From positions 1 to 26,903 of IMG/VR virus record IMGVR_UViG_3300044678_002132: 26,903 bases of DNA; one strand, 5' to 3'. A program made the position numbers and the translations under genes. The stretch comes from a virus. The notes beneath the pieces were generated by a model. That model was given only the letters and a program-made list of their open reading frames with translations, was not told where the DNA came from and did not search any database. Below are positions 7,975-26,903 of this stretch, one piece after another; within the stretch, counting starts at the first letter, position 1; every line of letters begins with the position of its first letter.

Positions 7975-8999
7975 AAATATATTTAGTAGACATAGAATCA
8001 GTTCCAACTCGCTATACTTGCGAATGGAAAAATCATGTACCGCAATTGCTTCGAGACAATGGATTTGATGTTGAAGTAGTTGAGGGCGATACTACAATTC
8101 CAGAAGCTGCAACACCAGGTGCCTTTTTGAATTTCGGCGGTACCAATATGTATAAGTCAACGCAAGTACATAAATTGGCATCATGGTTTACGCAAGGAAA
8201 AATACAAGCAGGCGACCATATCATTTTTACAGATGCTTGGCATCCGGGTATTGTCAATGTAAAATATATGAGTGAACTTTTAAATATTCCTGTTGTAACG
8301 CACGGACTTTGGCACGCGGGTTCATATGACCCAAATGACTTTTTAGGTCGTCTCGTAGGAGATAAACCATGGATACGACACGCTGAACAAGCAATGATTG
8401 CATCATACGAACATAATTGGTTGGCAACTAAGGCACATTTTGATTTAATGAATAAAACATATGATATATATCATGATCCAACTTTCAATAAGACAGGTTG
8501 GCCCATGGAATATACACGCAATATGATTGAACCAAAGCGTTGGGTATTAAAAGAAGATATCATTGTGTTTCCGCATCGCATTGCACCAGAGAAACGTTTA
8601 GATTTATTTCAAGAATTAGCTGCTCGACCAGAATTGGCACATTATCAATTTTGTGTAGCAATGGAAATGAATTTGACAAAAACAGAATATCACGAATTGC
8701 TTCGTCGAGCTAAATTTGCAGTGTCGTTTGCAGATCAAGAAACATTGGGCATTTCAATGTATGAATCAGCTTGTGCAGGAGCATGTCCAATTGTTCCAAA
8801 TCGATTATCATATACAGAAATGTATGACCCAATGTTTAAACAAGCAGACAGTGTAGATGAAGCGGTAGCAGCAATATTGCGATATGAACAACACAATATA
8901 GCTGGACAAATTACACAATTGGTAGACAAATTACATAATAAATTTTTTTCAGCAACTAAATTAATTAATAAACTAAAGGAATACGATGGCAGAAAATAA
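7971..8999 (+). CDS. GT-B glycosyltransferase (GT4-like)
   Basis: A 342-residue protein with a two-domain GT-B layout. The C-terminal half has FPHRIAPEKRLDLF (200-213), where GT4 enzymes bind the donor phosphate via Arg and Lys, and SFADQETLGISMYESACAGACPIVPN (252-277), with Glu264 in the E-x7-E region that grips the nucleotide sugar. The N-terminal acceptor domain is divergent. There is no membrane segment, so it is cytoplasmic. It overlaps the T-fold gene by four bases and the DpdA gene by 14, which ties it to DNA modification more than to the distant glycan cassette. An acceptor in modified DNA is possible but unproven; it is not recognisably a T4 alpha- or beta-glucosyltransferase. Confidence 0.82.
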   Translation: MKIYLVDIESVPTRYTCEWKNHVPQLLRDNGFDVEVVEGDTTIPEAATPGAFLNFGGTNMYKSTQVHKLASWFTQGKIQAGDHIIFTDAWHPGIVNVKYMSELLNIPVVTHGLWHAGSYDPNDFLGRLVGDKPWIRHAEQAMIASYEHNWLATKAHFDLMNKTYDIYHDPTFNKTGWPMEYTRNMIEPKRWVLKEDIIVFPHRIAPEKRLDLFQELAARPELAHYQFCVAMEMNLTKTEYHELLRRAKFAVSFADQETLGISMYESACAGACPIVPNRLSYTEMYDPMFKQADSVDEAVAAILRYEQHNIAGQITQLVDKLHNKFFSATKLINKLKEYDGRK

Positions 9000-10245
9000 A
9001 AGATTCATATACTTTCCATCTTTATCTGCAGGATCTATGGTATCTGCATTTAAGAAAGATATGAAGTTCGAAAGCGGCGATCCAGTAAAATTCTTTGATT
9101 CTAGATATCCTGCAGAATGGAGACATCCATACTTTCTGGTTACGGCAGGGCATCATTACAAGAAAATGGATTTTCGCGATCAATTGGGATTAGAAAAAGA
9201 TGTGCTAGTATTTGGTGACTCAGGAGGTTATCAGATTGCAACGGGTGCATTACCATATAGCAATGAATTACGAGAAAAGATATTTCATTGGTTAGAAGCA
9301 AATAGCGATGTAGCAGCTAACTTAGATATCCCACCTAAAACAAAATATCGCAATCAATTTGCACATTGTGCTGACATTAGTTTTGATAATTTTGCTTGGT
9401 TTGAAAAACATCAAAGCGGTAAGACAAAATTCTTAAACATGTTGCAAGGTTCAAATACCGATGAATATACTTGGTGGTATCATAAATTTAAGCATTTTGA
9501 TTTTCAAGGTTGGGCGATTGGAGGCCCGCAAAAATTAGTTGATTTCATGTTTGCGGTTTCTTTGATGCTTAAAGAGCGCGAATTTGAAAATAAACGATTA
9601 GAATATGTTCACTTGTTAGGCATTAGCAAAATATCAGATTTCTTTATTTTGGCTACATTGCAAAAATTGATGAATGCGCATACCGGAAATAGAATTTATA
9701 TTACAACAGATTCTTCTTCTCCGGGTCAATATCCAGTATTTGGAACATATTTGCATTCAACAAATTACAAGTCACAAACATTTTCTGAATTGTATTTTCC
9801 GAAGAATGCTGAATATCGCAGAAAGGCACATATCAAACAAGGTAAAACCGGAGAGGTTGCAATTGATTTAACTCAACATGTTCCTTGTGCATTAGGTTGT
9901 CCTGCCTGTAAAGATTTTACATATGAATTGCTAGGCGGAAAGACAGATGCAGGTTTAGATCGTTATTCACAGGAAGCTATGCCAAGAATGGTAGTTCACA
10001 ATACGCATTTGTATGTACAGGCAGCAAATGAAATCAATCAATTGGTTGATAGTCACGTGGAATTGTTAGAAACAGTAATACCAAGAGACTTATACGATGT
10101 AATTTTGTCATTACATGAAATGTTTGCAGATCCGGATTCGGCGCCGCAAGTATATGAAAAATACATCAAAACATATAAAAAATTCGGTGGTAGCAGTATA
10201 TCGACTACCGATGCAGAAAATTTTAATAAATTCTTTACATTTTAA
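8986..10245 (+). CDS. dpdA: DpdA-like DNA/tRNA-guanine transglycosylase
   Basis: A 419-residue TGT-superfamily protein. Phage members (DpdA) swap guanine in DNA for a 7-deazaguanine. Landmarks: FGDSGGYQ (76-83), the TGT DSGGFQ block with the general-base Asp78; NLDIPP (112-117); WAIGG (176-180), matching the guanine-pocket 'AIGGL'; HLLGI (209-213); TTDSSS (240-245), where Asp242 is the candidate nucleophile; and a zinc-like Cys301-x3-Cys305-x2-Cys308 cluster. It lacks the C-terminal PUA-type extension. AAAGGA (8975-8980) lies five bases before the ATG, inside the glycosyltransferase gene. With folE, queD and queE in the same window, DNA rather than tRNA is the likely substrate, since no other tRNA-modification gene is present. 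Confidence 0.88.
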   Translation: MAENKRFIYFPSLSAGSMVSAFKKDMKFESGDPVKFFDSRYPAEWRHPYFLVTAGHHYKKMDFRDQLGLEKDVLVFGDSGGYQIATGALPYSNELREKIFHWLEANSDVAANLDIPPKTKYRNQFAHCADISFDNFAWFEKHQSGKTKFLNMLQGSNTDEYTWWYHKFKHFDFQGWAIGGPQKLVDFMFAVSLMLKEREFENKRLEYVHLLGISKISDFFILATLQKLMNAHTGNRIYITTDSSSPGQYPVFGTYLHSTNYKSQTFSELYFPKNAEYRRKAHIKQGKTGEVAIDLTQHVPCALGCPACKDFTYELLGGKTDAGLDRYSQEAMPRMVVHNTHLYVQAANEINQLVDSHVELLETVIPRDLYDVILSLHEMFADPDSAPQVYEKYIKTYKKFGGSSISTTDAENFNKFFTF

Positions 10246-15053: not shown

Positions 15054-16550
15054 ATGGAGTTACCAAAGTTACAAAAGTTCGACCCGAACAAGCCTAAGAA
15101 AAAGAAAATTTTATTGTTAGCTGACGATTTTCGTTTGCCGTCTGGCATTGGCACAATTAGCCGAGAAATAGTTTTTAATACCGTACATCATTATGATTGG
15201 GTACAATTAGGAGCAGCTCTACATCATCCCGAACACGGGCAAGGTGTTGATTTATCTGCACATGTTGCACAAGAAACTGGTGTAGCTGATGCGTCTGTTA
15301 AAATAATTCCGTGGAGCGGATATGGCGACCGCAATATATTATTTGCAATCATCAATCAAGAAAAACCAGATGCAATATTTCATTTCACTGATCCAAGATA
15401 TTGGGTTTGGCTTTATGCAATTGAACATGAAATTAAAACAACTTATAATATTCCTATTGTATATTATTCAATCTGGGATGATTTGCCGTATCCGATGTGG
15501 AACGCACCATATTATGCAAGTTGCGATTTAATTATGGGTATTAGCAAGCAGTCAGATAACATTCATCGAGAAGTACTTACTCAAAATGGGTTTGATGTCG
15601 TAAATTATGATTCAAATGATTCTGTACCGCAAGATGTAAAATGGAACCAAATTATTACAGGATTTGTTCCACACGGATTGAATCATAACACGTTTAAGCC
15701 ATTGCCGCAAGATGACGCAGCATACAAACGAATGTATGAAAATATCAAAACTAAAAATGATGTTGATTTTGTAGTATTTTGGAATAATCGAAATATACGA
15801 AGAAAACAACCAGGTGATTTGATATTAGCATTCAAACATTTTGTAGACGGATTGCCAGAAGCTACACGAAATAAAGTTGCACTTTTAATGCACACGCAAG
15901 TTGTAGACGAAAATGGTACAGATTTGCGTGCAATTTATAAAACATTGGCACCTAATTGCAAAATATTATTTTCAGAACAAAAAATGACTCCACAAGAGTT
16001 AAATGCATTGTATAATGTTGCAGATGTGGTAGTTAATATTGGTAGCAACGAAGGTTGGGGACTTAGTTCAACTGAAGCAATGTTGTCAGGAACTCCTATC
16101 GTTAATAATGTTACCGGTGGATTGCAAGATCAATGTGGTTTTGTAGATGAAAATGATGAATGGATAAGATTTGATGGAGATTTTTCAACAAATCATATGG
16201 GTAAATTTAAACACCATGGGATATGGGCCAAACCAGTATTTCCAAGTAACCGATCACTTCAAGGATCGCCTGCTACGCCATATATCTTTGATGACCGAGT
16301 TTGTTTTGAAGATGTAGCTGATGCAATTCGCTATTGGTATGACACTCCAGAAACGCTTCGAGAGTCGATGGGACAAGCTGGAAGAGATTGGTGTTTGAAA
16401 AATGGACTTACGGCAGAACAAATGGGTCAAAAAATGATTCATATGATTGATTATCTATTTGATTCTAAACGAGAAAATAGAGCAAAATATACATTACATA
16501 AAGTTACAACAAAAAAATACGAAAAAACAGGAATAGTATGCGCACAGTAG
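15054..16550 (+). CDS. GT4-family glycosyltransferase
   Basis: A 498-residue GT-B glycosyltransferase, first gene of the glycan cassette. The N-terminal Rossmann start is KKILLLADDFRLPSGIGT (about 17-34), with a Gly-rich donor-side turn. The C-terminal domain holds NEGWGLSSTEAMLSGTPIVN (332-351), the E-x7-E type nucleotide-sugar motif of GT4. The N-terminal peptide ELPKLQKFD is echoed at the C-terminus of the next protein (ELKLPKLQKI). It has AAAGGA five bases... upstream at 15044-15049, the clearest ribosome binding site in this region. There is no membrane segment. It overlaps the next gene by 13 bases. Acceptor unknown. Confidence 0.88.
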   Translation: MELPKLQKFDPNKPKKKKILLLADDFRLPSGIGTISREIVFNTVHHYDWVQLGAALHHPEHGQGVDLSAHVAQETGVADASVKIIPWSGYGDRNILFAIINQEKPDAIFHFTDPRYWVWLYAIEHEIKTTYNIPIVYYSIWDDLPYPMWNAPYYASCDLIMGISKQSDNIHREVLTQNGFDVVNYDSNDSVPQDVKWNQIITGFVPHGLNHNTFKPLPQDDAAYKRMYENIKTKNDVDFVVFWNNRNIRRKQPGDLILAFKHFVDGLPEATRNKVALLMHTQVVDENGTDLRAIYKTLAPNCKILFSEQKMTPQELNALYNVADVVVNIGSNEGWGLSSTEAMLSGTPIVNNVTGGLQDQCGFVDENDEWIRFDGDFSTNHMGKFKHHGIWAKPVFPSNRSLQGSPATPYIFDDRVCFEDVADAIRYWYDTPETLRESMGQAGRDWCLKNGLTAEQMGQKMIHMIDYLFDSKRENRAKYTLHKVTTKKYEKTGIVCAQ

Positions 16551-17770
16551 TTATAGCATCACCAGTAGCAACACAATCGGGATACGGACATCATGCTCGT
16601 GAAATAATTGCTAATTTTATTGAACAACGAGGTAATGAATGGGACATTAAATTGCTTTCATTACCATGGGGGCATACACCATTTACATATCCATTGCCAC
16701 AAGATTGGAAACAAAGAATTATTCCAATGCCAATACAATATCAACCAGATATTTGGGTACAAATAACCGTGCCAAATGAATTTCAAGCAGTTGGTAAATA
16801 TAATATTGGAGTCACCGCGGCAACAGAAGGTGATATTTGTCCCGCAGAATGGATTGATAAAATTAATGCTATGCAAATGATTATTGTTCCAACTGAATTT
16901 ACTAAACAAGTATTTGAAAATACATCTAAAAAACATGGAAAAGCTATAACAACAAATATACAAGTTATTCCGGAATATTTTGATGAAACAATTTATACGA
17001 ATACATTGCCAGGCCAATTAAGTATATTAGATCAAATTGCAGAAACAACTGCATTTTTATCGGTAGGACATTGGTTACAAGGACAACTAGGAGAAGATAG
17101 AAAAAATATCAGTGGATTGATTCATTGTTTTTTTGATACATATAAAAATCAAAAAGATACTCCTGCTCTCGTATTAAAAACAAGTGGTGCAACATATTCT
17201 GTATTAGATCGATTTGAAATTGAATCAAAAATTTCACAAATACGAGATATGTTTGGAAATGCAAAATTACCAAGTGTATATCTTTTGCATGGTGATTTAA
17301 CAGATGAAGAAATGAATCTTCTTTATAATCATCCAAAAATAAAAGCAATGATATCATTTACTAAAGCTGAAGGTTTTGGTCGTCCATTATTAGAATTTTC
17401 GACATCCGGGAAACCAATCATTGCTCCATACTATTCAGGACAGGTAGATTTCTTGAAAAAAGATTTTATTTGTGCATTACCAGGCGGATTAACTGAAATT
17501 CATCCATCGGCACGCAATGAATTTTTAATTGAAGAAGCTAAATGGTTTACTCCGGATTATGCATCTGCAGGTAAAATGATGAAAGATGTTTTGAAAAATT
17601 ATAAAAAATGGCAAGAATTAGCAAAACGTCAACGTTACTTTGTAAATTCAACTTTTACTAAAACTGCAGTAGCCACAGTATATGAACGAGTATTGAACAT
17701 TGTAGATGAGGGAGTTGAATCTATCCCAAAACCATTAGAGTTAAAACTACCTAAATTGCAAAAAATATGA
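16538..17770 (+). CDS. GT-B glycosyltransferase
   Basis: A 410-residue protein with GT-B architecture. It opens with TVVIASPVATQSGYGHHARE (3-22), the acceptor-domain start with the 'GyG.h.re' turn. The C-terminal domain carries TKAEGFGRPLLEFSTSGKPI (275-294) with Glu278 and Glu286 as the donor-binding pair. The last residues, PKPLELKLPKLQKI, repeat the peptide at the N-terminus of the preceding enzyme. It overlaps the preceding gene by 13 bases and the next by four (ATGA). Cytoplasmic. It probably acts on the same glycan as its neighbours; sugar and acceptor are unknown. Confidence 0.86.
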   Translation: MRTVVIASPVATQSGYGHHAREIIANFIEQRGNEWDIKLLSLPWGHTPFTYPLPQDWKQRIIPMPIQYQPDIWVQITVPNEFQAVGKYNIGVTAATEGDICPAEWIDKINAMQMIIVPTEFTKQVFENTSKKHGKAITTNIQVIPEYFDETIYTNTLPGQLSILDQIAETTAFLSVGHWLQGQLGEDRKNISGLIHCFFDTYKNQKDTPALVLKTSGATYSVLDRFEIESKISQIRDMFGNAKLPSVYLLHGDLTDEEMNLLYNHPKIKAMISFTKAEGFGRPLLEFSTSGKPIIAPYYSGQVDFLKKDFICALPGGLTEIHPSARNEFLIEEAKWFTPDYASAGKMMKDVLKNYKKWQELAKRQRYFVNSTFTKTAVATVYERVLNIVDEGVESIPKPLELKLPKLQKI

Positions 17771-18390
17771 AAATAACATACGCTATTACGGTGTGCAATG
17801 AGTTTAAAGAAATTCAAAGACTCATTACACACTTGCTTAAACATAAAAGAATACAAGACAATATTGTTATCTTGTTTGATAGTAAAAATGGAGATTTAGA
17901 GATTGAAGCTTTTTTACGATCACACTCTGTTAATAAAGAATTTTCTTGGCATAAAGGTGAGTTTGCAGGACATTTTGCAGATTGGAAAAATAAGTTAACT
18001 AGTTTATGTAGCGGCGATTATATTTTTCAGATCGATGCAGATGAAATACCTCATGAAAAACTAGTAGAAGTATTACCATATGTATTAGAAGAAAACTTTG
18101 ATTGTGATGTATTTTTAGTTCCACGCGTTAATACAGTAGAAGGAATTACTCAAGAACATATTACAAAATGGCGCTGGAATGTAAATGATCAGGGCTGGAT
18201 CAATTGGCCGGACAATCAATGGAGAATTTGGAAAAACAAAACAGAAATTAAATGGATTAATAAAGTCCATGAAGTATTAAATGGACATAAGACGTGGACC
18301 AGTTTGCCAGAAATGGAGGAGTTCGCTCTATATCATCCTAAAACAATTGAACGACAAGAAAAACAAAACAATTATTACAATACATTATGA
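17767..18390 (+). CDS. GT2-family glycosyltransferase
   Basis: A 207-residue GT-A enzyme. It begins ITYAITVCNEFKEIQRLI (3-20), the classic GT2 opening strand with the 'V.NE' turn, then FADWKNKL (70-77) and the metal-binding motif FQIDADE (87-93) with Asp90 and Asp92. WRWNVNDQGWINWPDNQWRIWKN is a Trp-rich acceptor-side segment, and IKWINKVHE resembles the 'W..~VHE' motif in phage and LPS glycosyltransferases. It is soluble. It overlaps the genes on both sides by four bases. Confidence 0.86.
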   Translation: MKITYAITVCNEFKEIQRLITHLLKHKRIQDNIVILFDSKNGDLEIEAFLRSHSVNKEFSWHKGEFAGHFADWKNKLTSLCSGDYIFQIDADEIPHEKLVEVLPYVLEENFDCDVFLVPRVNTVEGITQEHITKWRWNVNDQGWINWPDNQWRIWKNKTEIKWINKVHEVLNGHKTWTSLPEMEEFALYHPKTIERQEKQNNYYNTL

Positions 18391-19064
18391 AAAAAGAAAT
18401 TTTAATTATAGTACCATCCAGATCTGGTGAAAGTGTCAGATATCCAAATGTTGATCGATTTATACAACATTGTCAACTTCATTCAGAAGGACATAGTGAT
18501 TTATGCATTGCATTAGACTCTGATGATGATCATCAATATCCTAGAAGAGATGGCGTTATTTATGAAGTGAATCCTCGAATAAGGATGATTCCAACATTGA
18601 ATCAAATTGCCATGAAATATAAAGACCAATATAAATATATTGCGTTTTTTGGCGATGATCACGTTATTCAATCAGCTTGGGAATCTAAGTTTATTTCTTA
18701 TTTTGAAAAAAATAATGGAGTTGGCATCGCATATGGTAATGATTTATTACAAGGAGCTAAATTACCAACCGCAGTTTGTTTAACTTCTAATATAGTTGAC
18801 AAATTAGAATATATGGTTCCTAAGAATTTAATTCATATGTATGCTGACAATTTTTGGTTAGATTTAGGACATAGCTTAAATATTATTAAATACTTTGATG
18901 AAGTAATATTTGAACATGTACATCCAGACAACGGCAAAGCAGTACGAGATTCACAATATGTAGATGCAGCATCTGTTGCACCATATGATCAACAACAATA
19001 TCAAATCTATATGAATAGTCCACAAAGAATGATTGACATTAATAAAATAAAAGAATTATTATGA
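18387..19064 (+). CDS. GT-A (GT2-like) glycosyltransferase
   Basis: A 225-residue GT-A-like protein. It opens with ILIIVPSRSGESVRYPNV, the 'lp.R.Rp....' start seen in many phage glycosyltransferases. Nucleotide-binding acidic clusters are LDSDDD (43-48) and FFGDDHVI (87-94), the latter in the DXD position. YADNFWLDLG (about 153-162) fits the later acidic motif. More divergent than its neighbour at 17767, so donor and linkage cannot be guessed. It overlaps the flanking genes by four bases on each side. Confidence 0.75.
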   Translation: MKKEILIIVPSRSGESVRYPNVDRFIQHCQLHSEGHSDLCIALDSDDDHQYPRRDGVIYEVNPRIRMIPTLNQIAMKYKDQYKYIAFFGDDHVIQSAWESKFISYFEKNNGVGIAYGNDLLQGAKLPTAVCLTSNIVDKLEYMVPKNLIHMYADNFWLDLGHSLNIIKYFDEVIFEHVHPDNGKAVRDSQYVDAASVAPYDQQQYQIYMNSPQRMIDINKIKELL

Positions 19065-19651
19065 GATATAAAACATTTGATAAACCACATAGTCATGATG
19101 CAGAATGGTATAAAGACCGAGAAGCAGTTGATCATATAAATGAAGCAGGACATCGTCCTAGATTATTGCAAGTGCAAGATTTTTTATTACAAATATTAAA
19201 TCATGAACAAAATAAAGATTTAACAATTTGTGATTTTGGTTGTGGCAATGCTGGACTAATTCGCGAGATTCAGTCAAAAGTTTCAAATACAATTTGGGGT
19301 TATGATTTATGTCCTGCAAATGTAGAAGATGCAATTACACGCGGAAATACAGATAATGTATTTTACAAAGATTTTATAATCGAAGATGATATTAAATTCC
19401 CAGATATTGCAATTTGTACAGAAGTATTAGAGCATTTAGTAGATCCAGACACATTTATTAAAAAATTATTAAATAACGGCGTAAAATATATCATAGCATC
19501 ATCTCCCGATTATGAAACACCAACATATCACGCACCATTTCATTTATGGGTGTTTAATGGGGATTCATATAAAGAAATGTTTGTAGACGCAGGATGGAAT
19601 GTAACATTACATCACAAAGCACATTTTCAATATATCGTAGCAACAAAGTAA
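19061..19651 (+). CDS. Class I SAM-dependent methyltransferase
   Basis: A 196-residue methyltransferase of the type 11/12 kind. Motif I is ICDFGCGNAG (56-65), the acidic residue after strand 2 is in WGYDLCPA (Asp at about 86), and the post-motif CTEVLEHLVDPDTF (about 124-137) is the typical 'SevlEHl.dp..~l' block. It has no nucleic-acid base-flipping motif such as DPPY or PCQ, so a small-molecule or sugar substrate is more likely than DNA. It lies in the glycan cassette next to an FkbM methyltransferase and probably caps or decorates sugars. It overlaps the gene before by four bases. Confidence 0.86.
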   Translation: MRYKTFDKPHSHDAEWYKDREAVDHINEAGHRPRLLQVQDFLLQILNHEQNKDLTICDFGCGNAGLIREIQSKVSNTIWGYDLCPANVEDAITRGNTDNVFYKDFIIEDDIKFPDIAICTEVLEHLVDPDTFIKKLLNNGVKYIIASSPDYETPTYHAPFHLWVFNGDSYKEMFVDAGWNVTLHHKAHFQYIVATK

Positions 19652-19654
19652 CTT

Positions 19655-20278
19655 ATGTATTCACAACACGGAGAAGACCTTTTTATTGTTAATCAGTTGT
19701 CTAACAATAATAAAATTGGATCTATATTAGATATAGGTGCAAATGACGGAACAACTTATTCAAATTCTAGATATTTTATTGAAAAACTAGGATGGAAAGG
19801 CGTATTAGTAGAACCTACTAGCCAATGTATATCTAAATTAAATGAATTATATTCTGAAAATAATCAAGTTATCATATATCCATATGCAATTGATTCAGAA
19901 GAAACGGAAACGGTGATTTATTTAGGAAATTTAGAGCCAGATACAATTAATCAAGTATCTACAATGTCAACTTCAGAAAAAACATATTGGGAAACTAATA
20001 GAAATGTTCACTATACTGAAGAACTAATTAAAACAAAGACAATTGATCAATTAGTATCAGATATCAAGATTGATTACTTTGATATTATTAGCATTGACAT
20101 CGAGGGTAAGGATATTTTAGCATTTAGTAGATTATATGAATTAGGATACAGACCAGAATTTTTTATATTCGAACATAATTCTAATAATATCACAATACAG
20201 CAGTTATCAGATATATGTCATACTGAATATAGGATTGTTTGGCAAAATACAATTAATTTTATCTTACAAAAAATATGA
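19655..20278 (+). CDS. FkbM-family methyltransferase
   Basis: A 207-residue SAM-dependent methyltransferase of the FkbM type, which O-methylates sugars or polyketides. Evidence: YSQHGEDLFI at the N-terminus (the 'sQ.gED.~i' FkbM lead), motif I ILDIGANDGTTYSNSRYF (24-41), VLVEPTSQC (50-58), and the catalytic-side ISIDIEGKD (about 145-153) with FFIFEHN close behind. It starts three bases after the preceding methyltransferase and overlaps the following glycosyltransferase by four. Methyl-capped sugars would be expected in the product. Confidence 0.9.
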   Translation: MYSQHGEDLFIVNQLSNNNKIGSILDIGANDGTTYSNSRYFIEKLGWKGVLVEPTSQCISKLNELYSENNQVIIYPYAIDSEETETVIYLGNLEPDTINQVSTMSTSEKTYWETNRNVHYTEELIKTKTIDQLVSDIKIDYFDIISIDIEGKDILAFSRLYELGYRPEFFIFEHNSNNITIQQLSDICHTEYRIVWQNTINFILQKI

Positions 20279-21135
20279 AAATACTATTAGGTTGTTTGAA
20301 TGCTAATGGCTTAGGCGGAAGTGAATTATATCATTATGAACTAACACGTGAATTAGATGCATTAGGACACGATGTTACATTATTCACATTGCGAGAAATT
20401 GATTGGATGGATGAAGTACGATTAAAACTTCAACATGTTCGACAATTAGATACAACAAATTTGGATATTACAGAAAAATATGATATAATAGTAGCAAGTC
20501 AACCGCAAGTCAATTTGTTTATGTTGGAACATTTTAAAAATATTCCTATAATTAGTATCATACATTCAGAAATTAGATCTGAAGATCCGATATTGGATTC
20601 TAGAATATCACATTATGTTGTAATACGAAAACCAATTGTAGATATGCTTATCAATGACTACAATATACCAGCATCCAAAGTTTCATTGATATACAATCCA
20701 ATTGATAGAACTAGATTTAATTCCAATGAGGCTTCAAAATTAGAACGTTATTCTGGAATTTTTGTTGGAGAAGTTTTAGATCCAATACGTTTTCAAGCAG
20801 TTCAGCATTTAGTTCAACAATGCATTGAAAATGATTGGGATTTGTATCTAATGAGTGAAAGTCGTTATGACTTTAAGCATCCAAACATTAAATATGTAGA
20901 CAAACGATGGGATACTGAAAACATAGTACAGATGATGCATTTTACTGCAGGAATTTTATTAGGCAGAACAACTTTAGAAGGTTGGTGTTGCGATGTGCCA
21001 GGATATATGTATTTAATTGATATCAATGGAAATATTTTATCAATAGATTCAACGGCGCCGGAAGAAATAAAAGAATTATGCAACAGCAAATATGTTGCAC
21101 AACAACACATTAATTTATATCAATCAATTATATGA
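20275..21135 (+). CDS. GT-B glycosyltransferase (GT4-like, short)
   Basis: A 286-residue GT-B-type protein, shorter than typical GT4 enzymes (~370). The N-terminal KILLGCLNANGLGGSELYHYELTRELDALGHDV is the textbook GT4 start, a Gly-rich loop followed by the helix and 'G.~V' strand. SLIYNPIDRTRFN (about 136-148) matches the inter-domain 'v.~NgiD...f' linker. The C-terminal domain is reduced: RTTLEGWCCDVPGYMY is the best match to the donor motif. It overlaps both neighbours by four bases. It is probably active, but the shortened donor domain is notable. Confidence 0.82.
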   Translation: MKILLGCLNANGLGGSELYHYELTRELDALGHDVTLFTLREIDWMDEVRLKLQHVRQLDTTNLDITEKYDIIVASQPQVNLFMLEHFKNIPIISIIHSEIRSEDPILDSRISHYVVIRKPIVDMLINDYNIPASKVSLIYNPIDRTRFNSNEASKLERYSGIFVGEVLDPIRFQAVQHLVQQCIENDWDLYLMSESRYDFKHPNIKYVDKRWDTENIVQMMHFTAGILLGRTTLEGWCCDVPGYMYLIDINGNILSIDSTAPEEIKELCNSKYVAQQHINLYQSII

Positions 21136-21998
21136 ATAAAATATTATATACATTACACGTAATGTGGTATGAGTCTAAAATGTTAAATGAAACATTAGAT
21201 TCAGTTGAGCATGCAATTCAAAATAGTATTATCCCAGTAGATTTAATAGTATATTTAAATGCTCAAACATTTATAGAAAAGCCTGACAACGTTATTCCAA
21301 TAGAGATGTTTAATGAATTTATAAATCATCCAGTTTTAAAGAATGCAATCATTTCATATAAAACAAATGATGATGAATTTTATAATATAGGAGATTTCCG
21401 TAGAGATATTTACGGTCCAGAATATGATTATAAATACATTGTATGGGGAGAATCTGATTGTTTAGTCCCAGAAGATTATTTCTTTCTATTATCAAACATA
21501 GAATTAGATCATCCACATTTTATTTCATTAGCAACTAGAAAAATGTGGGATAGTACATGGGATGATGTAGAACATCCGTGGATACATAAATTTCCTAGAA
21601 ACGGCCCCGCAATACGTCCAGAACAAGCTCCAGCTCCATTTAATTGTACTGATTATATTTCAATTGATGAATTAAATAAATTTAATAGTCAATTCGATCC
21701 AATTTTAATTAAATTAGACCGATTGAAGATAGATGGTAATATGACCGCACTAGCAAGAAATTTACCATATCCATTTTTACCATTAGATTTACATTTTGCT
21801 CGAGAAGATTATTGTTTAGAAATGTTTTTTACTAAAAAAAATATACCACAATATCATATATCAACTAGATTAAAAGGACATAATCAAGTTCACCCTACAA
21901 AACGAGTTGGGACATTAAATGAAAAGAATGACGAGATTTATAAACAATTTGAACAAGATGCATATACAAGCATTTTTAATTTTATAGAAAATTTATGA
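21132..21998 (+). CDS. GT-A-like glycosyltransferase
   Basis: A 288-residue protein. A GT-A fold is inferred from the start KILYTLHVMWYESKMLNETLDSV, the strand VDLIVYLNAQT, and the acidic metal-site candidate VWGESDCLVPEDYFF (104-118), a variant DXD (Glu107-Ser-Asp109). LHFAREDYCLEMFF (about 219-232) matches the later 'ED..l' acceptor motif. It lacks membrane segments. It overlaps its neighbours by four bases on both sides. I do not recognise a closer family, so sugar and acceptor are unknown. Confidence 0.68.
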   Translation: MNKILYTLHVMWYESKMLNETLDSVEHAIQNSIIPVDLIVYLNAQTFIEKPDNVIPIEMFNEFINHPVLKNAIISYKTNDDEFYNIGDFRRDIYGPEYDYKYIVWGESDCLVPEDYFFLLSNIELDHPHFISLATRKMWDSTWDDVEHPWIHKFPRNGPAIRPEQAPAPFNCTDYISIDELNKFNSQFDPILIKLDRLKIDGNMTALARNLPYPFLPLDLHFAREDYCLEMFFTKKNIPQYHISTRLKGHNQVHPTKRVGTLNEKNDEIYKQFEQDAYTSIFNFIENL

Positions 21999-22870
21999 AA
22001 ATATTAATTACAGGCCATATGGGGTTCGTAGGCAGATCCTTTTTACGTTATTTTAATGGTAAACATGAAATAACTGGAGTTGATTTAAAAGAAGGAAACG
22101 ATTGTCGCGACTTTTTTAAAACTTCAACTCAAAAATTTGATTTGATAATTCATTTAGCAGCAATCGTAGGTGGTCGAGAAACAATTGAAAATGAACCGTT
22201 ATCAGTAGCAACAGATTTATCAATTGATTCGGAGTTCTTTAACTGGGTAATAAAAACAAAACAACCTAGAGTAGTTTACTTTAGTTCTAGTGCAGCATAC
22301 CCAGTACATTTACAACATCCAGAATTGCAATATCATTTAAAAGAATCGGATATTAATTTAGATGATATTAGATTACCAGATTATACATATGGTTGGGCTA
22401 AATTAACAGGCGAATATTTAGCAAAATTTGTTAGAGAACAAGGAACTAAAGTTTATGTATTTAGACCATTCTCAGGATATGGCGCAGATCAGGATTTAAC
22501 TTATCCATTCCCATCATTCATTGATAGAATTAAAAGAAAAGTTTCTGAATTTGAAATTTGGGGCGATGGTACGCAAGTACGAGATTTTATCCATATGGAA
22601 GATATTGTAGAAGCGGTTATGACTGTTGTAGAAAATGATGTTCAAGTTGATGCATTGAATCTAGGAAGTGGAATAGCTACTCCATTTAATACATTAGCTG
22701 AAACTATGTTTGAAATTAGCAAATGGCGGCCAGAGAATGGAATTAAACATTTATTAGAAAAACCAATTGGAGTTTCTTTTAGAGTATGTGATCCTAGTTT
22801 AATGCTATCAATATACAAACCTAAATATACATTAGAAGAACGAATTGAACAAATATTATATGGAAAATAA
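21995..22870 (+). CDS. NAD-dependent epimerase/dehydratase (extended SDR)
   Basis: A 291-residue extended short-chain dehydrogenase that modifies a nucleotide sugar. The cofactor loop is TGHMGFVG (6-13, GxxGxxG). LIIHLAAIVGG (50-60) is the usual 'd.ViHlAa..g' segment. The catalytic elements are FSSSAAY (96-102) and Tyr132-x3-Lys136 (YTYGWAK). FRPFSGYG and QVRDFIHMEDIVEA are the conserved substrate-side motifs. It most resembles NDP-hexose 4-epimerases or GDP-sugar epimerases, but the exact reaction cannot be read. It supplies a non-standard donor sugar to the neighbouring transferases. It overlaps the previous gene by four and the next by 11 bases. Confidence 0.92.
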   Translation: MKILITGHMGFVGRSFLRYFNGKHEITGVDLKEGNDCRDFFKTSTQKFDLIIHLAAIVGGRETIENEPLSVATDLSIDSEFFNWVIKTKQPRVVYFSSSAAYPVHLQHPELQYHLKESDINLDDIRLPDYTYGWAKLTGEYLAKFVREQGTKVYVFRPFSGYGADQDLTYPFPSFIDRIKRKVSEFEIWGDGTQVRDFIHMEDIVEAVMTVVENDVQVDALNLGSGIATPFNTLAETMFEISKWRPENGIKHLLEKPIGVSFRVCDPSLMLSIYKPKYTLEERIEQILYGK

Positions 22871-23993
22871 CATTTCATTATTAGTAGGACTAAAAAATAA
22901 TTTAGACTACAATAAACATTTTTACGAAACAACTAGAGCATTATATCCAGAAGTAGAAATATGTTTTGTAAGTTATGGGTCAACTGATGGAACGCATGAA
23001 TGGTTAGACACATTATTAGATGATAACTTAAAGTATTTCTATTCAGTTGAAAACAAAACGTTTTCTGATACATTTAACAAAGCAGCAGAATTAGCTACGC
23101 GCGACTATGTAGCATATTTACATAATGATATTGTATTAGCGCCTGGTTTTATTGAAAATTTAGAAAAACATGTAGATGCTAACAATGTGGTTGCATATAC
23201 CACAATAGAACCGCCTATATTCGCAGGACATGAACGTCCAGGTAAACTAATACATGATTTGGGTACATCTTTAGAGACGTTTGATAAGGGGGCGTTATAC
23301 GAGTTTGTTAGAACAAATAAATCTAAATATGAAAACAAAACTGAATCTGGTATTACGTTTTTTATGTGTATGCCTCGCATCAAGTTATTAGAAATTGGAG
23401 GTATGGATAATTTATTCAATCCAATGTTTTGCGAAGATGATGATTTGATTCGTCGATGGAATTTATTGGGAATGAATTGTTTTACTGCATTGGATGCAAT
23501 ATGTTATCATTTTGTTAGTAAAACATCTAGATTTTCAGAAGAATATCAAACTCGAACACAGCAAATTGAATTGAATTCAAATAGAAATTTCATTAGAAAA
23601 TGGGGTATGCGATTATCGGCACCAAAATATAATATTGGAATACGTATTGAAAATTGTACGGCACACTTATTAGAATTATTAGAACCGTTTGGCGAACAAA
23701 TATACTCAGATGCAGAGTGGATGAAATATGTTACATTAGAACAACCTAATACAAAATTTGATTTACGTAAACGTTGCCATTCATTAACTGAGTTGGATAG
23801 ATATGATTATAATGATATCGTTGTAGAAATTGATGGAAATGCATTTACTCAACAAGATTTTGATGTTATACAAAATTTATCAGCAATAGTACAAGATTCT
23901 GGAGAACCCGGCACCTTTACAATAGGTAATTTAAAAATTACAATTGTTTCTATGGAAACATATGAAAAAGATCTAGTTGTTTGTAAAAAATAA
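22860..23993 (+). CDS. GT2-family glycosyltransferase with C-terminal extension
   Basis: A 377-residue protein. Residues 1-245 are a GT2 domain: NNISLLVGLKNNLDYN start, FVSYGSTDGTHEWL (36-49, the 'v.s.gStDgt..~l' loop), AYLHNDIVLAPGF (85-97) with HND at the DXD position, and FCEDDDLIRRWNLLG (about 183-197), the acceptor 'ED.Dl..R....G' motif. The last ~130 residues are an extra domain of unknown role. The start ATG 22860 lies within the epimerase gene; the in-frame TTG at 22845 is less likely. It ends the cassette; a 65-base gap with a promoter-like box follows. Confidence 0.88.
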   Translation: MENNISLLVGLKNNLDYNKHFYETTRALYPEVEICFVSYGSTDGTHEWLDTLLDDNLKYFYSVENKTFSDTFNKAAELATRDYVAYLHNDIVLAPGFIENLEKHVDANNVVAYTTIEPPIFAGHERPGKLIHDLGTSLETFDKGALYEFVRTNKSKYENKTESGITFFMCMPRIKLLEIGGMDNLFNPMFCEDDDLIRRWNLLGMNCFTALDAICYHFVSKTSRFSEEYQTRTQQIELNSNRNFIRKWGMRLSAPKYNIGIRIENCTAHLLELLEPFGEQIYSDAEWMKYVTLEQPNTKFDLRKRCHSLTELDRYDYNDIVVEIDGNAFTQQDFDVIQNLSAIVQDSGEPGTFTIGNLKITIVSMETYEKDLVVCKK

Positions 23994-24021
23994 ATTTTCT
24001 CATTGATTTGTTTGTTTTGTT

Positions 24022-24036
24022 ATATTTATACGAAAG
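24022..24036 (+). promoter_or_regulatory. Putative promoter box before the lysis block
   Basis: ATATTTATACGAAAG in the 65-base gap before the lysis genes matches the box at 15025-15039 in 13 of 15 bases. On the - strand it reads TATAAATA, the T4 late core. A + strand role, with a 22-base leader to the ATG at 24059, is suggested by position at the head of both large cassettes. Confidence 0.4.
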
Positions 24037-24048
24037 TAATAATTTAAC

Positions 24049-24053
24049 GGGAG
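24049..24053 (+). promoter_or_regulatory. Ribosome binding site GGGAG fixing the start at 24059
   Basis: GGGAG lies five bases before ATG 24059 and decides that start over the in-frame TTG at 24008, which would place the promoter-like box inside the gene. Confidence 0.6.
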
Positions 24054-24058
24054 ATATA

Positions 24059-24313
24059 ATGGGCGGATTCAAACAAATCTTTAAAGATTCGAATGATTAC
24101 AATGAAAAAACCATTATTGGATTTATGTCATTTGCAGTTATGACACTTGCAATGGTTGTAGATTTAATAACAGGATATTTTGGTAATGAATTAAAATTAA
24201 ATGAATACATTTACAATTCATTTGTTATTGTAACATTGGGAAGTTTAGGAATTGCAGGTTTAGAAAAGTTTGCAGGAAAAAAATCAAATAACGAAAACAG
24301 CGAAGAAATATAA
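24059..24313 (+). CDS. Small two-TM membrane protein, holin-like
   Basis: An 84-residue protein with a charged N-terminus (about 1-18), a first membrane segment at about 19-41 (IIGFMSFAVMTLAMVVDLITGYF), a short polar loop, a second at about 50-67 (YNSFVIVTLGSLGIAGLEKF), and a hydrophilic, Lys/Glu-rich tail. This is the size and shape of class II holins or of an antiholin. It is the first gene of the lysis block and a second holin-like gene follows two genes later. The start at 24059 is chosen for the GGGAG site just upstream. Confidence 0.75.
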   Translation: MGGFKQIFKDSNDYNEKTIIGFMSFAVMTLAMVVDLITGYFGNELKLNEYIYNSFVIVTLGSLGIAGLEKFAGKKSNNENSEEI

Positions 24314-24322
24314 AGGTTAACA

Positions 24323-24913
24323 ATGTCTTATACAAGAGAACAAATTGAAGCTACCGTAAAAGCTAAAGGATATGTTTGGTTTGAAGGTGCAAAAAATTAT
24401 GATGTGAATATTGTAGGAGTACGAAATTCTGCAACAGGTGATAAAGTTACTAACGTGTTTGATGATATCATGACAGTATCATATAAAGTTGATGGCGAAT
24501 GGAAATTTCATGCATGGCCATGTACAACTGATCCAGGTAAGAAAGGTGTTCAGCAATATCACAATGCAAAAGGCGTTGCTCGATTAGTTGAAGGTCAATA
24601 CAGAGGTTCACACGGAATTGGTTTGCATCAAGGTAAGTATGAAGCATTAAAACAATATAAATCAGTAAAAGTATTTCGTGATGCAGATCGCAACATGACA
24701 TACGCTGAAAACAAAGTGGATGAAGGTGTTTTTGGAATCAACATTCACAAAGCGGGTGCAGATTCAACTTATGTTGAAAATTGGTCTGAAGGTTGTCAAG
24801 TATTTAAAAGAGTTAAAGATTTTGAAGAATTTATGACAATTTGTCGTAAAGCCAAAGACATCCATGGAAATTCTTTTACTTATACATTGATTGAATCTGC
24901 GGACGTTAAATAA
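24323..24913 (+). CDS. YkuD-like (L,D-transpeptidase-fold) cell-wall protein
   Basis: A 196-residue protein with a motif resembling the YkuD active site: GINIHKAG (138-145, His142) followed by NWSEGCQVF (153-161) with Ser155 and Cys158, i.e. the H...S-x-G-C pattern of L,D-transpeptidases. The region before it is strand-rich with no signal peptide or membrane segment. The family acts on peptidoglycan crosslinks; in a lysis block it may cut or alter the wall, leaving through the holin pore. AAAGG (24312-24316) precedes the ATG by six bases. Its stop overlaps the holin ATG (TAATG). Its exact substrate is unknown. Confidence 0.75.
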   Translation: MSYTREQIEATVKAKGYVWFEGAKNYDVNIVGVRNSATGDKVTNVFDDIMTVSYKVDGEWKFHAWPCTTDPGKKGVQQYHNAKGVARLVEGQYRGSHGIGLHQGKYEALKQYKSVKVFRDADRNMTYAENKVDEGVFGINIHKAGADSTYVENWSEGCQVFKRVKDFEEFMTICRKAKDIHGNSFTYTLIESADVK

Positions 24914-25341
24914 TGAAAACAACAACATTATCGGCGATAATATATTCGGCAAGTACATTGATGGCATTCATTTGTACATATTTCTTCAACTTGGCAATGT
25001 CAAATTCAGATCAGTATTTGGCATTGGTTGCAGTAGTAATGACAGATGGGTTCTTTGGAGTAATTGCTGGTACTAAAAATGAAGGCTTCAAAACATTTAA
25101 AGCTCTTAAAGTTTTGAGAACATTGGTAGTATGGATTATGTTTTTAACGGTATTGTTAGTTATCGAAAAAGGTTTTCCGGGTACGGGGTGGTTGAGTGAA
25201 ACCATTTTATTGCCATTCATAATATTTCAACTTGTTAGTGCATTAAAGAATGCATCAATGTTGGGATTGATTGAAGGAAAAGTTTTATTAGAAATTTTAG
25301 ATAAAATTGATTTACATAAAGGTTTACGAAATAAAGGTTAA
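24913..25341 (+). CDS. Phage holin family protein (four TM)
   Basis: A 142-residue membrane protein with about four hydrophobic segments (about 6-28, 35-54, 67-86, 94-112) and a soluble, charged C-terminus. The middle has DGFFGVIAGTKNEGFKTFKALKVLRTL, matching the 'D...G~~~a...~e.~ss.k...gl.kk~' part of the phage holin/toxin-secretion family, and the late SALKNASMLG matches 'SilENa..lG'. It would permeabilise the inner membrane to set lysis timing. It sits directly between two wall-active enzymes, overlapping the first by one base and two bases before the second. Confidence 0.82.
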   Translation: MKTTTLSAIIYSASTLMAFICTYFFNLAMSNSDQYLALVAVVMTDGFFGVIAGTKNEGFKTFKALKVLRTLVVWIMFLTVLLVIEKGFPGTGWLSETILLPFIIFQLVSALKNASMLGLIEGKVLLEILDKIDLHKGLRNKG

Positions 25342-25343
25342 AT

Positions 25344-26021
25344 ATGAGTTTAGATACATCAAAAATTAAACAAGTTCCATTACCAGAGTCACAGTATATT
25401 AAAGAAGCAACAGAAAAGAAACAAATCGTATTGCATCACACCGCAGGTAATTCATCAGGCCCAGGCACAATTAAAATGTGGGCTAATGATGATAGAGGAC
25501 GAATTGCAACTTGCGTTACTATATCTGGTAAAGGCGTATCAAAAGATACATACGACGGAGAAATTTGTCAAGCATTTTCATCTAAGCATTGGGGATATCA
25601 TTTAGGACTTAAACAAGATGTGTTTAAAGCTAAGGGCGTTCCTTACAAAGCATTAGATAAGATATCAATTGGAATTGAAATTTGTAACTGGGGTGGATTA
25701 GACAAAGTTGGAGATAAATTTTATAATTATGTGGATCGAGAAATTCCTGCAGATCAAGTGACGGAATTAGAAACGCCATATAAAGGACATAAATATTATC
25801 ATGCGTATACAGATGCACAAATTGAATCTGTTAAACAATTATTGTTACATTGGCGAGACACTTACGGCATTGACTTAACATACCGAGAAGAAGATATGTG
25901 GTCAGTATCAACGCGAGCTTTGAAAGGAGAAGTAGGTGTGTATACGCACAATTCATATCGTAAGGATAAATCGGATATATATCCTTGTCCTCGTATGATT
26001 GCAATGCTGAAAACATTGTAA
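25344..26021 (+). CDS. N-acetylmuramoyl-L-alanine amidase (endolysin)
   Basis: A 225-residue Amidase_2 (zinc amidase) protein, the probable endolysin, cleaving the amide between MurNAc and L-Ala. Evidence: IVLHHTAG (28-35) with the first zinc His, WGYHLGL (83-89), ISIGIEICNWGG (107-118), and a distal THNSYRKDKSDIYPCP (201-216), the 'H......K.DPgp' segment carrying the second His (202) and the third ligand position. There is no separate wall-binding domain or signal peptide, fitting holin-dependent release. AAAGG (25333-25337) lies six bases before the ATG. The stop shares a base with the next ATG (TAATG). Confidence 0.92.
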   Translation: MSLDTSKIKQVPLPESQYIKEATEKKQIVLHHTAGNSSGPGTIKMWANDDRGRIATCVTISGKGVSKDTYDGEICQAFSSKHWGYHLGLKQDVFKAKGVPYKALDKISIGIEICNWGGLDKVGDKFYNYVDREIPADQVTELETPYKGHKYYHAYTDAQIESVKQLLLHWRDTYGIDLTYREEDMWSVSTRALKGEVGVYTHNSYRKDKSDIYPCPRMIAMLKTL

Positions 26022-26903
26022 TGCGCAATGCATTATCGGGCATATCATTAAAATCAAAAATAGCACTAGGAATTACTGGTGCTATTATGATTATTTTCTT
26101 TATTGTACAAATTTGTGCCATTATGGGTTGGTGTTCTACTAGTTATGAACTAAGCAAATTTGGATATGGTTGTGTAATTGGATTTATATTTCCATTCTTT
26201 GTTTTTGCATCTGAATTCTTATTACAAAAACGACGGATGATTGAAGAGATTAATAATCAGGTTGGCGAAGTACGCAAACAAAATACATATCTGGAACATG
26301 CAGCAAAGATACTTAGACACGATATGCATTCGGGTATTAATACTTATATTCCGAGAGGCATATCATCTTTAGAACGCAGAGTACCTGATTCTGTAATCGC
26401 AGAATTAAAAATTGAAGCACCATTGAAAATGATAAAGGAAGGACTTGCTCATTCCCAAAAAGTTTATAAAGGTGTTTATGAATTTACTAATCTAGTAAAA
26501 AAAGATGCCGTATTAGATAGAGCCGATCACAATTTAAAAACTATCTTAGAAAATTATCTAGCATCTACTTCATATAAAAGTCAAGTTATCATTGACGAAT
26601 TACCCATTGTATCAGTTAATGAATCATTGTTTTGTACAGCATTAGATAATTTAATTCGCAATGGATTAAAATACAACGATAGTGATCTAAAATTAGTTAA
26701 GATATATATGGAAAATGATTTGTTGATTTTGCAAGATAATGGCCGCGGCATAACTCAACAAGAATTTGATACATTATCTCAACCATATACTAGAAAAGAA
26801 GGACAAAAAGAAACTGGCAGTGGATTGGGATTGAATATTTGTATTGCTATACTACAAGAACATGGATTTGGAATTTCATGTGAAAAAAACAATATTGGAA
26901 CTA
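26021..26903 (+). CDS. Membrane histidine kinase (3' end outside window)
   Basis: The frame is open from ATG 26021 to the window edge (294 codons). Two membrane segments (about 13-36 and 48-68) flank an 11-residue loop, so there is no sizeable extracytoplasmic sensor. A coiled-coil linker (about 70-95) leads to the phospho-acceptor box ILRHDMHSGI (His100 candidate), a helical region, then a Bergerat ATPase: N box ALDNLIRNGLKYND (207-220), G1 DNGRG (239-243), and G2 GSGLGLNI (266-273). All ATP-binding motifs are intact, so it should autophosphorylate. No response regulator is in view. It is translationally coupled to the amidase (TAATG). The C-terminal end of the ATPase domain, and any receiver domain, lies beyond the window. 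Confidence 0.88.
   Translation, partial: MRNALSGISLKSKIALGITGAIMIIFFIVQICAIMGWCSTSYELSKFGYGCVIGFIFPFFVFASEFLLQKRRMIEEINNQVGEVRKQNTYLEHAAKILRHDMHSGINTYIPRGISSLERRVPDSVIAELKIEAPLKMIKEGLAHSQKVYKGVYEFTNLVKKDAVLDRADHNLKTILENYLASTSYKSQVIIDELPIVSVNESLFCTALDNLIRNGLKYNDSDLKLVKIYMENDLLILQDNGRGITQQEFDTLSQPYTRKEGQKETGSGLGLNICIAILQEHGFGISCEKNNIGT

Follow-up and report, generated by a model that had tools for sequence, protein, structure and literature searches.

A histidine kinase gene set directly against the endolysin gene of a phage raises the question of what such a sensor would be used for. The gene, here called HK1, runs from 26021 to 26903 at the edge of the window, by which we mean the whole stretch of DNA analysed, an entire linear IMG/VR record of 26,903 bases; HK1, its parts and the lysis genes before it all lie on the plus strand. 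A sequence-only reading had described the product as a transmembrane histidine kinase with two transmembrane (TM) segments, an H box and N, G1 and G2 boxes, its gene joined to the endolysin gene by a TAATG overlap. Hydropathy, alignment and a structural model agree with the first description, and the second is plain in the sequence, where the amidase stop codon TAA (26019–26021) overlaps the HK1 start in TAATG (26019–26023). The two genes are likely to be translationally coupled through this junction. The ATG at 26021 is favoured over an in-frame upstream TTG because relatives of the short type have the same first residue (MNALSGIS.., MSALDGIS..).

The HK1 frame stays open up to the contig end, giving 294 of about 301 amino acids (aa) from this ATG, and, since the window is the whole record, cannot be traced further within its own contig. 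Three relatives (L002, L003 and L004) match the window colinearly through its edge, with 93–97% nucleotide identity. In these near-identical contigs the gene, which might have proved to be interrupted just past the window, continues uninterrupted to a complete 301 aa; judged from relatives, the HK1 stop codon lies 7 codons beyond the contig end, and full-length copies are present in L002–L006.

Within HK1, hydropathy places TM helix 1 at residues 14–32 (26060–26116; helix 10–34 in the model) and TM helix 2 at residues 50–68 (26168–26224; helix from residue 42 in the model). The H box, RHDMHSGINTY, contains the phospho-acceptor His100 (codon 26318–26320), assigned from relatives and from alignment with CpxA and HK853, and is identical in 91 of 91 HK1 relatives checked. 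Sequence and alignment locate the N box DNLIRNGLKYND (residues 209–220, 26645–26680), the G1 box DNGRGI (residues 239–244, 26735–26752) and the G2 box GSGLGL (residues 266–271, 26816–26833); across 34 aligned sequences His100 is invariant and the residues of the other three boxes are invariant or nearly so. An AF2 model of the complete L002 homologue (pLDDT 87.7) shows a pair of TM helices together with the DHp hairpin and catalytic domain. A structure search with the HK1 model (Foldseek) ranked CpxA first and HK853 among the best; residues 82–301 align with HK853 (2c2a) with a Z score of 15.0 (VIA-align), and residue 82 corresponds to residue 230 of CpxA (4biu_B), a constant offset that sets His100 on CpxA His248, which we take to be the phospho-acceptor of that kinase. 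HK1 also matches HK853 in a profile comparison with an E value of 2e-13. The profile search proposed for the two kinase domains succeeded for HATPase_c (PF02518), with a match above the Pfam cut-off in HK1 (E = 1.9e-10) and matches in 34 of 34 relatives, but not for Pfam HisKA (PF00512), which was absent from the 25 commonest families of the 34 members and gave no match at E ≤ 1 for the first of them. The dimerisation domain was therefore identified through structure and motif. HK1 is a genuine histidine kinase, predicted from its residues to carry out autophosphorylation and phosphotransfer, and its DHp is a divergent branch that lies outside Pfam HisKA but within the wider kinase class.

A response regulator had been sought downstream of the kinase, and it is present in relatives that extend beyond the window (L003–L005). 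After HK1, L003 and L004 encode in turn LPcc, an exported coiled-coil protein of 211 aa; HK2, a second kinase of 486 aa whose N-terminal region is exported; and a receiver of 145 aa that the contig ends truncate. In L005 the receiver (RR) is complete and is followed by a 225-aa coiled-coil protein with two TM segments, named TMcc. The window contig ends before these genes, and we strongly infer from the relatives that the window phage itself has LPcc, HK2, RR and TMcc. In the window clade the LPcc gene separates the two kinase genes (for example L003:1847–2482), and LPcc-like genes are also seen without a second kinase in L028, L036 and L053; the protein may act like a spanin or as an accessory to a sensor. 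In the relatives, RR is a 145-aa stand-alone receiver that matches PF00072 above cut-off (E = 1.3e-8) and, by sequence, the solved response regulator 3ilh; its active-site residues Asp9, Asp10, Asp63, Ser94 and Lys116 are invariant among 19 sequences. Judged from these close relatives, HK1 would be the first gene of a complete relay of sensor kinase, response regulator and membrane protein.

How general is this arrangement? A search of IMG/VR viral contigs seeded with the kinase returned at least 597 confirmed relatives, and an independent search seeded with TMcc returned at least 569. The gene just before TMcc is RR in 139 of 139 testable loci, and the gene just before RR is a kinase in 126 of 132. 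These counts cover only loci kept and testable and draw partly on the TMcc-seeded search; in several of the loci where no kinase adjoins RR, one is found 0.6 to 1 kb further upstream. Contigs with the module reach 322 kb. Large contigs hold one or two HATPase_c domains with coordinates within the module, and in 14 of 15 large phage contigs exactly one receiver was detected, the RR of the module. The phage thus brings its own regulator. The earlier proposal that the kinase taps a host response regulator consequently loses its ground: a dedicated receiver adjoins the kinase in the module, so a host partner is unnecessary. On its conserved residues and gene order, the module is almost certainly a complete phage-owned two-component system.

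The premise that such kinases are scarce among phages is true of sequenced isolates; it fails for environmental phages, in which the module occurs on the hundreds of contigs counted above. Among 50,697 deposited phage records, RR and TMcc have no relative and the kinase has only distant kinase-domain matches. A pattern search of GTDB (84,980 species) yielded only two true relatives: L082, which carries terminase- and PhoH-like genes on a contig binned in a metagenome genome, and L083, a Bacteroidetes metagenome genome in which the module lies among ordinary bacterial genes. A further hit, L084, was set aside as an ordinary bacterial response regulator (32% RR identity). No copy of the module besides that in the seed genome was found in 395 Bacteroidota and 291 same-order genomes. 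The phages that carry it probably infect Bacteroidota. Virome surveys name two-component systems among auxiliary genes (PMC9636769), and the open-access literature searched yielded no description of a phage module of kinase, receiver and membrane protein.

Phages capture host genes, and the window contig is truncated, so HK1 might be a functionless bacterial gene, captured or decayed, that lies near lysis genes by chance. We regard this as very improbable. It calls for relaxed selection and frequent frameshifts, neither of which is seen; instead, catalytic residues are invariant across divergent kinases and receivers, gene order is conserved in more than 100 loci, and there are almost no bacterial homologues that could have served as the source.

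The likely output of the relay is TMcc, in which a conserved N-terminal domain is joined by a coiled coil, variable in length, to a two-TM hairpin. Two hydrophobic segments are present in 148 of 148 members. Conservation is highest in TM2, whose polar and glycine residues gather on a single face; in the model a long helix is followed by TM2. Lys-rich flanks suggest an N-in/C-in topology. Comparisons with known families yielded little: Phage_holin_9 matches 4 of 26 members at E = 0.023, below cut-off; no holin match was found in PHROG; the one match by sequence in the PDB is a weak one to a Rop-type coiled coil (E = 0.037); and in BFVD only one uncharacterised phage protein falls below E = 0.001. 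A role as a phosphotransfer protein was considered and rejected, as the alignment contains no conserved His.

A clue to how TMcc may be controlled comes from the chromosomal copy in L083 (5709–9090), a kinase-RR-kinase module whose third protein joins the TMcc N-terminal domain to a HisKA/HATPase kinase; the N-terminus of this protein matches TMcc with a BLASTP E value of 3e-20. Since L083 keeps the order of kinase, RR and third protein with the hairpin swapped for a kinase, the N-terminal domain travels with RR, and as the part shared by the L083 protein and TMcc it is the likely point of RR control. On the basis of gene order and this one domain swap, the N-terminal domain of TMcc is likely to be an RR-controlled input.

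What the relay acts upon is suggested by its neighbourhood. In the window, HK1 closes a run of lysis genes: a small two-TM protein of 84 aa (24059–24313), holin-like by topology only (hydropathy), which heads the cassette and has no convincing family match in Pfam or PHROG; a putative second wall-lytic enzyme (24323–24913; phrog_3000 at E = 9e-37, phrog_33083 endolysin at E = 4e-10), in which a SEGCQ motif is reminiscent of YkuD-type L,D-transpeptidases; a holin (24913–25341; Phage_holin_4_1, PF05105, above cut-off at E = 4.6e-5, and phrog_199 holin); and the N-acetylmuramoyl-L-alanine amidase endolysin (25344–26021; Amidase_2, E = 1.9e-11). A promoter scan of 23900–26903 found sigma-70-like sites to be no commoner than in shuffled sequence. 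An 11-bp stem hairpin with a T-rich tail lies within the start of HK1 (26059–26086) and is probably due to chance, since one such structure was found against 0.8 expected in shuffles.

Other features of the window were also recorded. Genes resembling glycosyltransferases, methyltransferases and epimerases extend in a long series (15054–23993) right up to the lysis cassette, with Pfam matches to Glycos_transf_1 at 15054–16550 and Glycos_transf_2 at 22845–23993. Genes resembling GTP cyclohydrolase I and 6-pyruvoyl-tetrahydropterin synthase lie side by side at 671–1336 and 1338–1802, and by eye a QueE-like ORF (2120–2932) and a TGT/DpdA-like ORF (8986–10245) can be recognized, without a Pfam match at 1e-5. 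Together these four genes suggest 7-deazaguanine DNA modification in the window phage.

The sequence-only reading had asked whether the kinase keeps its lysis neighbours in related phages; it does, and the association extends well beyond the window clade. When loci were grouped at 95% RR identity and those with at least 2.5 kb on both sides retained, a lysis-type gene was found within 3 kb in 16 of the 23 RR clusters; the other seven have no tested lysis gene within that distance. The genes involved vary in family and position: a GH19 gene directly follows TMcc in 33 loci and precedes the kinase in divergent orientation in 30, a divergent phrog_3000 gene is found in 20, a holin lies directly upstream in 13 and an amidase directly upstream in five. 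Pfam confirms the GH19 domains in L020 and L057. In these same two contigs, DnaK-like chaperone genes were noticed by eye a few kb downstream of the module (L020:9553–11412, L057:10799–12643). GH19 is present in 16 of 23 large contigs, usually as one copy, and by coordinates it lies less than 3 kb from the module in 11 of these 16, where random placement would give 1.1 (P about 3e-10); after merging of the most related contigs the figure is 9 of 13 (P about 8e-9), the lineages being not fully independent. Coupling to an amidase was rejected as a general rule: it occurs in the window clade and some others only, its place being taken elsewhere by GH19, phrog_3000 or a holin, and in some contigs Amidase_2 lies tens of kb from the module. 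From these neighbours, the module is likely to serve lysis control.

The location might instead reflect late expression or a site tolerant of insertion, with the phage-owned module acting on host physiology, such as transcription, motility or envelope stress. RR has no output domain, CheY-like receivers often act on non-adjacent partners, some members lie away from lysis genes, and the GAF/PAS sensors of certain relatives would suit metabolic cues. Set against this, the constant presence of TMcc after RR in all 139 testable loci marks it as a dedicated partner, and several unrelated lysis families in several orientations are hard to fit to one inherited insertion site. We therefore consider an action on host physiology unlikely.

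The cue that the relay would read may be sought in the kinase N-termini, which are of four kinds: a two-TM hairpin only, as in the window; a hairpin with GAF/PAS; GAF/PAS without TM segments; and an exported region. The view that HK1 has almost no external sensor domain is correct insofar as it has only the two-TM hairpin, but it overlooks three conserved cysteines, the GAF/PAS domains of relatives and the exported domain of the second kinase, which would often feed the same regulator as HK1. The cysteines C32, C38 and C51 lie on the outer side of the hairpin (26114–26173) and are kept in 24–25 of 25 kinases of the two-TM-only type. Given this conservation, the outer face might serve in thiol/redox or metal sensing, and the stretch is a candidate element for it. 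Direct reading of holin activity by HK1 is no more than a bare possibility.

These observations lead us to propose, with somewhat more conviction than doubt, that the HK1 gene stands first in a two-component system which belongs to the phage and regulates host lysis. In the proposed model, HK1 would read a cue through its three-cysteine hairpin, a task that could fall to the GAF/PAS domains in relatives, and in the window clade the second kinase would join through its exported N-terminal domain. The kinases would then autophosphorylate on His and pass the phosphate to the phage RR, a chemistry predicted from the conserved catalytic residues. Phosphorylated RR would bind the N-terminal domain of TMcc, from which the coiled coil leads into the membrane hairpin, and TMcc would either change membrane permeability in a holin-like manner or restrain or release an adjacent holin, so that the phage advances or delays lysis. 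Because PF05105 holins occur in only 3 of 23 large contigs, TMcc becomes a candidate for that role wherever a GH19 gene comes after it; since the window clade possesses a PF05105 holin of its own, TMcc need not be a holin there and would be an extra or regulatory partner of that protein. The most specific form of the proposal, in which RR phosphorylated by the kinases would directly govern a dedicated coiled-coil, two-TM, holin-like TMcc as a signal-gated lysis switch of a type not described before, is put forward only tentatively.

The same architecture would serve a superinfection-exclusion or anti-defence device, in which the kinase triggers TMcc as a membrane effector in response to another phage or a host defence. 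In its favour, TMcc is a membrane protein built of a coiled coil and a conserved hairpin, and exclusion and abortive systems commonly rely on effectors in the membrane. PADLOC defence models, however, give one marginal partial match only, and the regular presence of lysis genes nearby speaks for lysis control rather than exclusion as such, making this reading quite improbable. It is close in spirit to the environmentally sensed lysis inhibition of T-even and ICP1 phages (PMC7182436).

If regulation of lysis by the module is correct, phages that carry it may choose the moment of host lysis according to conditions they sense, and a large phage group would sense its host or surroundings by the main signalling chemistry of bacteria. 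Phage lysis timing is usually credited to holin accumulation; under the switch put forward tentatively above, it would be set post-translationally by sensed cues and not by holin accumulation only. To our knowledge, few phage lysis-sensing systems are known, lysis inhibition being an example. The module supplies three testable genes and an uncharacterised family of membrane effectors unmatched among sequenced phage isolates.

Each component resembles, and departs from, a known counterpart. HK1 shares with HK853 and CpxA a helix hairpin for dimerisation that bears the phospho-His and an ATP-binding domain with N, G1 and G2 boxes; unlike them it is phage-encoded, has an H box of its own and, in the window clade, has a minimal three-Cys hairpin as its candidate sensor. 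RR resembles CheY-like single-domain regulators: it lacks an output domain, and its receiver, about 120 residues long, keeps the five active-site residues. It differs in its conserved C-terminal tail (EPRLEEFKKDYEGY..PFKIY) and in having TMcc, not a flagellar switch, as its constant neighbour. Class II holins have two TM helices with both ends cytoplasmic; TMcc likewise has two TM helices and is directly followed by a GH19 endolysin in 33 loci, where it fits the description of a holin as a small membrane protein of 1–4 TM segments beside an endolysin, as not all members do. It differs from these holins in its long cytoplasmic coiled coil and conserved N-terminal domain and in its marginal similarity to the profile of a single holin family. 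RR also recalls cREC of jumbo phages, a receiver-fold domain found in large phages (PMC7824862), yet RR is a normal PF00072 member beside a kinase, whereas cREC is described as never occurring with histidine kinases and as tied to NAD/ADP-ribose enzymes; in that review of 224 jumbo phages the only receiver mentioned is this divergent Rec domain (PMC7824862). The closest functional parallel is lysis inhibition, which in T-even and ICP1 phages is environmentally sensed and in ICP1 relies on a holin paired with an antiholin (PMC7182436). In abstracts on T4, ICP1 and N4, this process is described through holin and antiholin with no phosphorelay named, and it is in its proposed role, the sensing of conditions to adjust the time of lysis, that the module resembles these systems (PMC7182436, PMC12642591).
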